Shown: positions 37,125-46,464 of the stretch, piece after piece | Layout: the number at the start of each line of letters is the position of its first letter | How positions within the stretch are numbered: the first letter of the stretch is position 1 | Source of the DNA: an uncultured Flavobacteriales bacterium | Lineage (GTDB): Bacteria > Bacteroidota > Bacteroidia > Palsa-965 | Direction of reading: 5' to 3' | Length of the DNA: 64,000 nucleotides | Assembly: GCA_903873905.1 (NCBI GenBank) | Contig: CAIQQJ010000145.1 | Span: 1 to 64,000 of the forward strand | Notes under the pieces: model-generated | What the model saw: only the letters and a program-made list of their open reading frames with translations | The model's database searches: none | What the model was told of the DNA's origin: nothing | Made by a program: the position numbers and the translations under genes

Positions 37125-37282
37125 ATTTCATTTCGAATTTGCACGAATATACGAATCATTATAGGCCTTTATTGTAATTTAAAAAATCCCTATTTTATAA
37201 ATGAAAATTTCTGTTTTAAACTATTTCGGAGCAGGGAAATTTTAGTTCTCCACTTACACCTTTCGCGCTTTCCGCTGCAAGT

Positions 37283-37316
37283 CTCCCAACCCCAACAATT
37301 CTGTTGGGGTTGGGAG
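37283..37316. repeat. Perfect 15-bp inverted repeat (4-base loop)
   Basis: CTCCCAACCCCAACA is followed by ATTC and then its exact complement. No T-run follows on either strand, so a classical terminator is unlikely. The element is flanked on both sides by GCTGCAA at 5-10 bases. It could be a REP-like palindrome. Confidence 0.7.
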
Positions 37317-37429
37317 GCTTTACGCTGCAATCACGGCTATTTCCGAACATCCCAGTTTCAAACAAAAAACCACGGAGTCAAGGAGACACGGAGGAATTTC
37401 CATTTGTAATCCACACCTTTGTATGCACC

Positions 37430-45810: not shown

Positions 45811-45927
45811 AATGTCCTTAGTGGATTTTTTTGATTTTCAGGATATTTGGGTGTGATTAATGTTCCCAATACAGTGCAAATCAGTGATTCGCCAAAAAAT
45901 CAAGGAATTATTTGACTAACGTTTTTT

Positions 45928-45949
45928 CCCGAAGGGACCACCCTGTGGT
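45928..45949 (-). repeat. 22-nt double-hairpin insertion, copy 1 (inverted)
   Basis: Read on the minus strand it has stem CCAC-AGG-GTGG, then T, then CCC-TTC-GGG, then A. It is absent from the intact copy at 46312-46426 at the matching point (a run of six Ts before AATACG). The position can shift by one base because of the T run. Confidence 0.85.
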
Positions 45950-45978
45950 AATACGATCTGTTTATTATTTTTGCGACG

Positions 45979-46000
45979 CCACATAGTGGTCCCTTCGGGA
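45979..46000 (+). repeat. 22-nt double-hairpin insertion, copy 2
   Basis: Same element in plus orientation, with the first loop changed from AGG to ATA while the CCAC/GTGG stem stays intact. It is inserted directly after the first G of the tRNA-Ser acceptor stem copy. Confidence 0.85.
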
Positions 46001-46035
46001 GAGAAATGGCAGAGTGGTCGATCGCGGTAGTCTTG

Positions 46036-46057
46036 CCACAGGGTGGTCCCTTCGGGA
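46036..46057 (+). repeat. 22-nt double-hairpin insertion, copy 3
   Basis: Identical to copy 1 in the opposite orientation. It is inserted between the second and third anticodon bases (TG|A) of the tRNA-Ser copy. Confidence 0.85.
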
Positions 46058-46090
46058 AAAACTATTGACTGTAACAATAAATTTTATTTT

Positions 46091-46333
46091 ATGTTTTTTA
46101 CATATATCCTGTTAAGCAAGGTGGATGGGAAATATTATTATGGAAGTTGTGCTAATATTGAAATAAGGTTGAAGGCCCATAACAGTGGTAAAGTTCGATC
46201 AACAAAAGGACGTCGGCCACTTGTGCTACATTACCAAGAATCCTTTGACACAAAATCTGACGCAATAAGACGAGAAAACTTTTTTAAATCCATTGACGGC
46301 TATAATTGGCTAAAAAATCAAGGAATTATTTGA
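46091..46333 (+). CDS. Small GIY-YIG domain nuclease
   Basis: 80 residues from ATG 46091 (an upstream in-frame extension would run through the repeat copy and is not credible). 'FFTYILLSKVDGKYYYGSC' holds the GIY-YIG strands as Y-I-L and Y-Y-G, 'IRLKAHNSGKVRSTKGRRP' holds the catalytic Arg, and 'IRRENFFKS' holds the Glu-bearing helix. These small single-domain proteins (YhbQ/URI type) are found across Bacteroidota; some relatives are homing nucleases. Its 3' end and the following tRNA-Ser are partly duplicated just upstream, which suggests a past rearrangement around this gene. Confidence 0.85.
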   Translation: MFFTYILLSKVDGKYYYGSCANIEIRLKAHNSGKVRSTKGRRPLVLHYQESFDTKSDAIRRENFFKSIDGYNWLKNQGII

Positions 46334-46373
46334 CTAACGTTTTTTAATACGATCTGTTTATTACTTTTGCGAC

Positions 46374-46458
46374 GGAGAAATGGCAGAGTGGTCGATCGCG
46401 GTAGTCTTGAAAACTATTGACTGTAATAGGTCCGGGGGTTCGAATCCCTCTTTCTCCG
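46374..46458 (+). tRNA. tRNA-Ser(UGA)
   Basis: 85 bases. Acceptor stem GGAGAAA / TTTCTCC, D-arm with AGTGGTCGATC, anticodon stem GTAGT / ACTAT around loop CTTGAAA (anticodon TGA at 46408-46410), a long class II variable arm, T-arm GGGGG-TTCGAAT-CCCTC and discriminator G. It reads the UCA (and probably UCG/UCU) serine codons. CCA is not encoded. Confidence 0.95.
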
Positions 46459-46464
46459 CGGAAT

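Follow-up and report, generated by a model that had tools for sequence, protein, structure and literature searches.

A 22-nucleotide double-hairpin element with a preference for hairpin tips in bacterial genomes

Three inserts in a duplicated tRNA-Ser region

The window analyzed here is a stretch of 64,000 nucleotides (positions 1 to 64,000 of contig CAIQQJ010000145.1, assembly GCA_903873905.1) from an uncultured Flavobacteriales bacterium. The subject of this study is a 22-nt double-hairpin sequence, the 22-mer, of which three copies lie in a duplicated tRNA-Ser region of this window. The intact tRNA-Ser (TGA), recognized by ARAGORN and as Rfam RF00005, is located at 46374..46459 on the plus strand. 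Between the two tRNA-Ser copies, at 46091..46333 (+), there is a small gene encoding a GIY-YIG nuclease of 80 aa (Pfam PF01541). The other tRNA copy belongs to a partial duplicate at 45894..46074 (+), which consists of the 3′ end of the GIY-YIG gene, the region upstream of tRNA-Ser and the 5′ part of the tRNA. By alignment, its intact (empty) counterpart, likewise including the tRNA-Ser 5′ part, is found at 46312..46426 (+).

The filled copy measures 181 nt and the intact copy 115 nt, the excess of 66 nt being three times 22. When the three inserts are removed, both copies align with a single substitution, and no target duplication is seen at any of the inserts. A preliminary description of this DNA had claimed three precise 22-nt insertions, two plus and one minus, without target duplication and in an otherwise almost unchanged copy, which is borne out in full. 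A pattern search recovered the three inserts as exact matches to CCAC-NNN-GTGG-TCCC-TTC-GGGA, with none expected in 100 shuffles, and all three match CCACNNNGTGGTCCCTTCGGGA. Element 1, CCACAGGGTGGTCCCTTCGGGA, occupies 45927..45948 on the minus strand, and its site, CGTATTA^AAAAACG, is the centre of an imperfect palindrome. Element 2, CCACATAGTGGTCCCTTCGGGA, at 45979..46000 (+), is inserted between positions 1 and 2 of the tRNA (GCGACG^GAGAAATGG). Element 3, again CCACAGGGTGGTCCCTTCGGGA, at 46036..46057 (+), is located at the apex of the anticodon arm (TAGTCTTG^AAAACTA). The loops of the first hairpin read, in order, AGG, ATA and AGG, so that the described change from AGG to ATA with a preserved stem is correct.

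The 22-mer is predicted to fold into two back-to-back hairpins of 11 nt, each with a 4-bp stem and a 3-nt loop. Two hairpins had indeed been proposed before, the second one as CCC-TTC-GGG between a single T and A; by pairing, this hairpin is better written as TCCC-TTC-GGGA, with four base pairs. Because the fold energy of the bare 22-mer as DNA is ordinary compared to shuffled sequences (z -0.67 to -1.59), fold energy alone provides no evidence. The composite of a host hairpin and the element folds strongly (z -4.85), as does the host hairpin alone (z -7.49). Among copies from other genomes the loops differ, while the stems are constant by design of the search pattern. Five variants with two stem mismatches were found as well, and in three of these (L109, L117 and L184) the changes are compensatory, giving for instance CAC/GTG stems in L117 and CCCC/GGGG in L109.

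Copies, target sites and distribution

The genome from which the window originates (3.93 Mb in 181 contigs) contains 22 exact copies of the 22-mer, compared to none for a reversed-pattern control, besides several decayed ones. Approximately 17 of the copies share a single insertion point within a dispersed repeat, GCGTGAGGGATAGNAGNG^GAAAGCCC (GTG^GAAAG). The same repeat is empty at that point 67 times (at most one mismatch), making empty copies about four times as common as filled ones. The filled repeats may represent separate insertions or may partly have been amplified together with the repeat. In RNA folds of the repeat, the insertion point is not clearly located at the tip of a hairpin. 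The repeat itself, present in at least 67 empty and approximately 17 filled copies, has the architecture GCGTGAGGGATAGNAGNGGAAAGCCC-[variable palindrome]-GAGGACTTGCAACGAATAGCCCGACC-...-GGGCACGCC, in which the inner hairpin modules are exchangeable (L008 ~1577-1690, L272-L283). Three of the other copies are those of the tRNA-Ser remnant; the rest are distributed over a second repeat (GGTAATCTG^TAATC) and a third context (L008). In the loci scanned, copies are mostly intergenic, with 7 of 62 distinct copies lying within an open reading frame of at least 110 aa.

Outside this genome the distribution is patchy. The 22-mer was not found in 58 relatives from the same genus, family and class, nor in the rest of a 396-genome sample of the phylum. 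Genome contigs totalling 257 Gb were scanned and yielded 44 exact matches in 14 assemblies, where by our own estimate approximately two would be expected by chance. The hosts belong to the Bacteroidota, Ignavibacteria, Calditrichaeota and Zixibacteria and include a metagenome-assembled genome (MAG) of the Patescibacteria; the maximum copy number is 40, with variable loops, in SURF_9. Two hosts are named isolates (Tangfeifania and Membranihabitans), and since most of the others are MAGs, single taxon assignments can be wrong. The viral contigs searched contained no copy, and a search of open-access papers with the sequence string retrieved unrelated papers only.

To describe the target sites, 89 distinct junctions from 15 genomes were collapsed to 37 clusters with unrelated flanks. 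With the flanks joined, the palindrome score at the junction has a mean of 3.46, compared to 1.94 at nearby positions (0 of 20,000 resamplings; 37 clusters). The base at -1 is a G in 27 of the 37 clusters and the base at +2 an A in 33. The combination G^NA is present at 24 of the 37 independent junctions, against a background of 6.6% (p=8e-20). Typical sites are GGTC-G^TA-GACC, CAGATT-G^CA-AATCTG, ACCCT-G^AA-AGGGT and GGGAC-G^AA-GTCCC. At element 2 of the window the motif is present (G^GA) and a palindrome is absent. The A-rich flank noted earlier is better described as a target motif, G^NA. Some host palindromes carry a GTAG tag; as a rule for host palindromes the tag was rejected, as only some have it.

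Empty twins were found for many of the filled sites among the loci examined. In another Bacteroidetes MAG (L111), a 22-mer that occupies the T loop of a tRNA-Pro has a second 22-mer nested in its own G^AA loop. The 22-mer is a discrete unit, occurring in multiple copies and in filled and empty sites, with a preference for hairpin tips and G^NA, with nesting in itself and with a patchy spread across phyla. Its presence at several unrelated sites, and the existence of filled and empty versions of one site, are features of a mobile element. The preliminary description had suggested a very small transposable palindrome, and the 22 copies in one genome, the 14 other assemblies and the nested copy agree with this. 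The possibilities that the 22-mer is confined to this locus or that all copies share a single ancestral position are contradicted by the same counts and by the 37 unrelated flanks. Altogether, it is well supported that the 22-mer is a non-autonomous element that prefers hairpin tips, and as a mobile-looking DNA unit it is among the shortest seen in bacteria.

A candidate enzyme and competing explanations

The genome of origin has three Y1_Tnp genes. The C137 protein, of 154 aa, contains an HUH motif (DHLH), a Y---Q--HH motif (YIAKQQEHH) and Pfam Y1_Tnp as its sole domain. Y---Q--HH is the signature of TnpA_Y1 subclass 1.2 (PMC6006769), to which the protein is assigned on the basis of this motif, the HUH, its short length and the single domain. 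By sequence, the solved structures nearest to enzymes of the C137 type are the transposases 2xm3/2xma/2xo6 and 2fyx. Y1_Tnp genes are present in all 14 other host assemblies, and a 137-like Y1 gene was detected in 14 of 15 hosts compared to 51 of 117 phylum controls (Fisher 2e-4), a comparison that is not phylogenetically matched and mixes phyla and genome sizes. Hairpins with GNA loops occur at 0.384/kb around 137-like Y1 genes and at 0.072/kb in control loci, and GNA is enriched among the triloop hairpins near these genes (p=3e-5). In L107 and L113, the Y1 gene lies amid a series of GGTC-GTA-GACC hairpins, of which some are empty and others contain a 22-mer after the G; in both genomes every exact copy lies within ~1.6 kb of one Y1 gene. 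In Membranihabitans (L230, G461:C133), a Y1 gene is surrounded by Y-shaped double hairpins that share the plan of the 22-mer but not its sequence, and at the SURF_9 Y1 locus (L218) a variant double hairpin lies ~270 nt past the gene.

Further structures were observed at Y1 loci. The Y-shaped elements of L230, TTAATGGCTT-t-CCCC(GAAA)GGGG-TGGC(TAT)GCCA-AGCCATTAA and relatives, are present in at least four copies around the gene. Y---Q--HH-type Y1 genes (L107, L113, L119, L219, L222, L293, L303 and others) lie within hairpin arrays in which the loops are C-GNA-G or similar and the stems differ. In L120 (1920-2280), degenerate GTGTGCAGTGTCCTCGCAAGT repeats lie between two CCCCAAGC-TTCA/TGAA-GCTTGGGG hairpins beside the Y1 gene. 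Y-shaped structures do not characterize Y1 loci in general, as a scan returned only the L107/L113 family and L230.

Based on these observations, a mechanism can be proposed in which the 22-mer would integrate precisely and without target duplication, favouring loops of DNA hairpins already present, with the insertion point G^NA between the G and the N of a GNA-type loop. A Y1 HUH transposase (Y---Q--HH, subclass 1.2) would act in trans on the single-stranded DNA of the 22-mer. The C-GNA-G tip is common to the hairpins flanking such Y1 genes, to the preferred target and, in many hosts, to hairpin 1 of the 22-mer (CCAC-GNA-GTGG); the reverse complement of hairpin 2 is of the C-GNA-G type as well (TCCC-GAA-GGGA). 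The element could be regarded as a minimal inverted pair of hairpins resembling repetitive extragenic palindromes (REPs), which would target the tip of another REP-like hairpin or, alternatively, the stem-loop of a tRNA where a defunct remnant is available as a target. That a subclass 1.2 Y1 transposase moves the 22-mer is, in our judgment, the best of the explanations considered here, with about even odds. The complete proposal, i.e., a minimal bacterial transposon of single-stranded DNA that enters GNA loops, is moved by this subclass and has crossed at least five phyla, is a tentative one.

Apart from the mixed composition of the host/control comparison, several observations weigh against this proposal. 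Approximately half of the junctions lack a clear palindrome, including the commonest repeat of the genome of origin and window copy 2. No 22-mer was found within ~1.5 kb of the Y1 genes of this genome, and here as in most other genomes the copies are not adjacent to a Y1 gene. The first loop in this genome is ATA, AGG or ATT, not GNA. The Patescibacteria MAG has copies and no 137-like Y1 gene, only more divergent Y1 proteins. Cleavage, excision and new insertion were not observed in this analysis of sequences. Lastly, because most other Y1 loci lack double hairpins, the link with Y1 is suggestive rather than proven.

The preliminary description had named the neighbouring GIY-YIG protein as a possible mover: such a nuclease would cut the loops of tRNA-like or other hairpins, and the 22-mer would enter the break. 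The window and L111 are strikingly alike: a tRNA gene adjoins the GIY-YIG gene on one side, and a duplicated piece of the tRNA, containing 22-mers, lies on the other. A third GIY-YIG gene (L024) likewise follows a tRNA gene. The arrangement with 22-mers is seen at these two independent loci, but a detectable neighbour homologous to the window protein is present at only 2 of the 37 junction clusters, which does not fit a general mechanism. The genome of origin has two more small GIY-YIG genes, with no 22-mer within ~1-1.5 kb around them, and the tRNA-Ser loci of relatives lack a GIY-YIG gene. Both cases may be explained by the tRNA remnant being a hairpin-rich, unselected target. We read the GIY-YIG elements as producers of dead tRNA copies that are free hairpin targets for the 22-mer. 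A direct role in its movement is possible, but GIY-YIG as the mover is very unlikely, and the Y1 HUH enzyme (Y---Q--HH) is the better candidate. As for the nuclease genes themselves, small GIY-YIG genes adjoin tRNA genes with partial duplicates (window 45894-46459, Ser; L111 1-520, Pro; possibly L024 1309-1830, Ala), as though tRNA genes were their insertion sites and were restored in the process; the third small gene (L023 1100-2127) lies among tandem repeats (GACAAGGTTGACATTTCA...GTATCGAAGG), not beside a tRNA.

Inserts in tRNA anticodon and T loops and at other hairpin tips would also suit an RNA-level route, in which the hairpin pair, as a 22-nt RNA, is ligated into a loop of some structured RNA before reverse transcription returns it to DNA. 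However, GNA loops are a known stable form of single-stranded DNA, and structure targeting therefore does not require RNA. An association with reverse transcriptase or RNA ligase was not found, although no search was aimed at either, and this route is considered quite unlikely, even if the absence of target duplication speaks for it by the same argument as for the Allomyces elements (PMC2800124). A somewhat better, though still unlikely, explanation is that another enzyme, such as a class 2 REP-associated tyrosine transposase (RAYT), an IS110-type or other transposase, inserts the 22-mer into REP tips. Several host palindromes resemble GTAG-tagged REPs, and several unrelated insertion sequence (IS) families target REPs (PMC1525189), but no such gene was seen beside the copies with the queries used, i.e., Y1 and GIY-YIG only. 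The least probable alternative is that the 22-mer is not separately mobile and has spread as an internal module of larger repeats, by homologous exchange or gene conversion, with rare additional events. The approximately 17 copies at one point of one dispersed repeat are in line with this, and it could explain the amplification within that repeat. As a full account it is already contradicted by the excess of empty repeats, by the unrelated flanks in 15 genomes, by the three inserts in both orientations within one 130-bp tRNA remnant and by the copy inserted in itself.

Relation to known systems

The proposed system shares its enzyme superfamily and the use of hairpin substrates with IS200/IS605, in which target duplication is absent. 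In contrast to these, the 22-mer is gene-free, totals 22 nt and targets a hairpin loop instead of a fixed tetra- or pentanucleotide. It also differs from DDE-type miniature inverted-repeat transposable elements, as it is exactly 22 nt long, lacks target duplication and has ends, CCAC and GGGA, that are not inverted copies.

REPs and REP doublets forming hairpins (REPINs) are, like the 22-mer, extragenic palindromes, and their movement is ascribed to a Y1 HUH enzyme, RAYT (TnpA_REP). The second half of the 22-mer reads as GTGG followed by a hairpin, as in a GTRG-tagged REP, and hairpins with GNA tips are clustered at a Y1 gene here. Unlike in a GTAG-tagged REP, the GTGG 5′ of TCCC-TTC-GGGA is paired with CCAC inside hairpin 1 in the predicted fold, and the unit is inserted within other hairpins. 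The candidate enzyme differs from RAYT in being of the Y---Q--HH type, i.e., subclass 1.2, generally without IS200-type terminal hairpins and without associated hairpins in a 2018 survey (PMC6006769). Insertion into REP palindromes is known for IS1397, ISKpn1, IS621 and ISPpu9, which are, compared to the 22-mer, full-size IS elements with their own transposase (PMC1525189).

A close parallel in construction is offered by the double-hairpin elements of mitochondria in Allomyces (Paquin, Laforest and Lang 2000) and by other mitochondrial hairpin repeats. These are, like the 22-mer, very short units of two hairpins with a patchy distribution and with merging or tandem joining of hairpin units (PMC2800124, PMC4478555), and those of Allomyces insert without target duplication as well (PMC2800124). 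For the latter, an RNA-level mechanism has been suggested (PMC2800124). The 22-mer differs by its location in bacterial chromosomes, its fixed length of 22 nt, its conserved stems, its G^NA tip target and a candidate DNA transposase. It appears to work like the mitochondrial elements, by analogy; homology is not claimed. How such ultra-short hairpin elements move has been an open question since the mitochondrial cases, and the present case supplies a defined unit with its boundaries, a rule for its targets (hairpin tip, G^NA) and a small enzyme as candidate. If the proposal is true, it provides a substrate for a Y1 subclass recorded without associated hairpins, and double-hairpin elements may move in the same way in bacteria and in mitochondria. 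Insertion of the 22-mer is one way in which nested palindromes arise in bacterial intergenic DNA.

Elsewhere in the window, a Flavo-1 RNA (RF01705) was detected at 37257-37342 on the minus strand, with a score of 53.7 bits.
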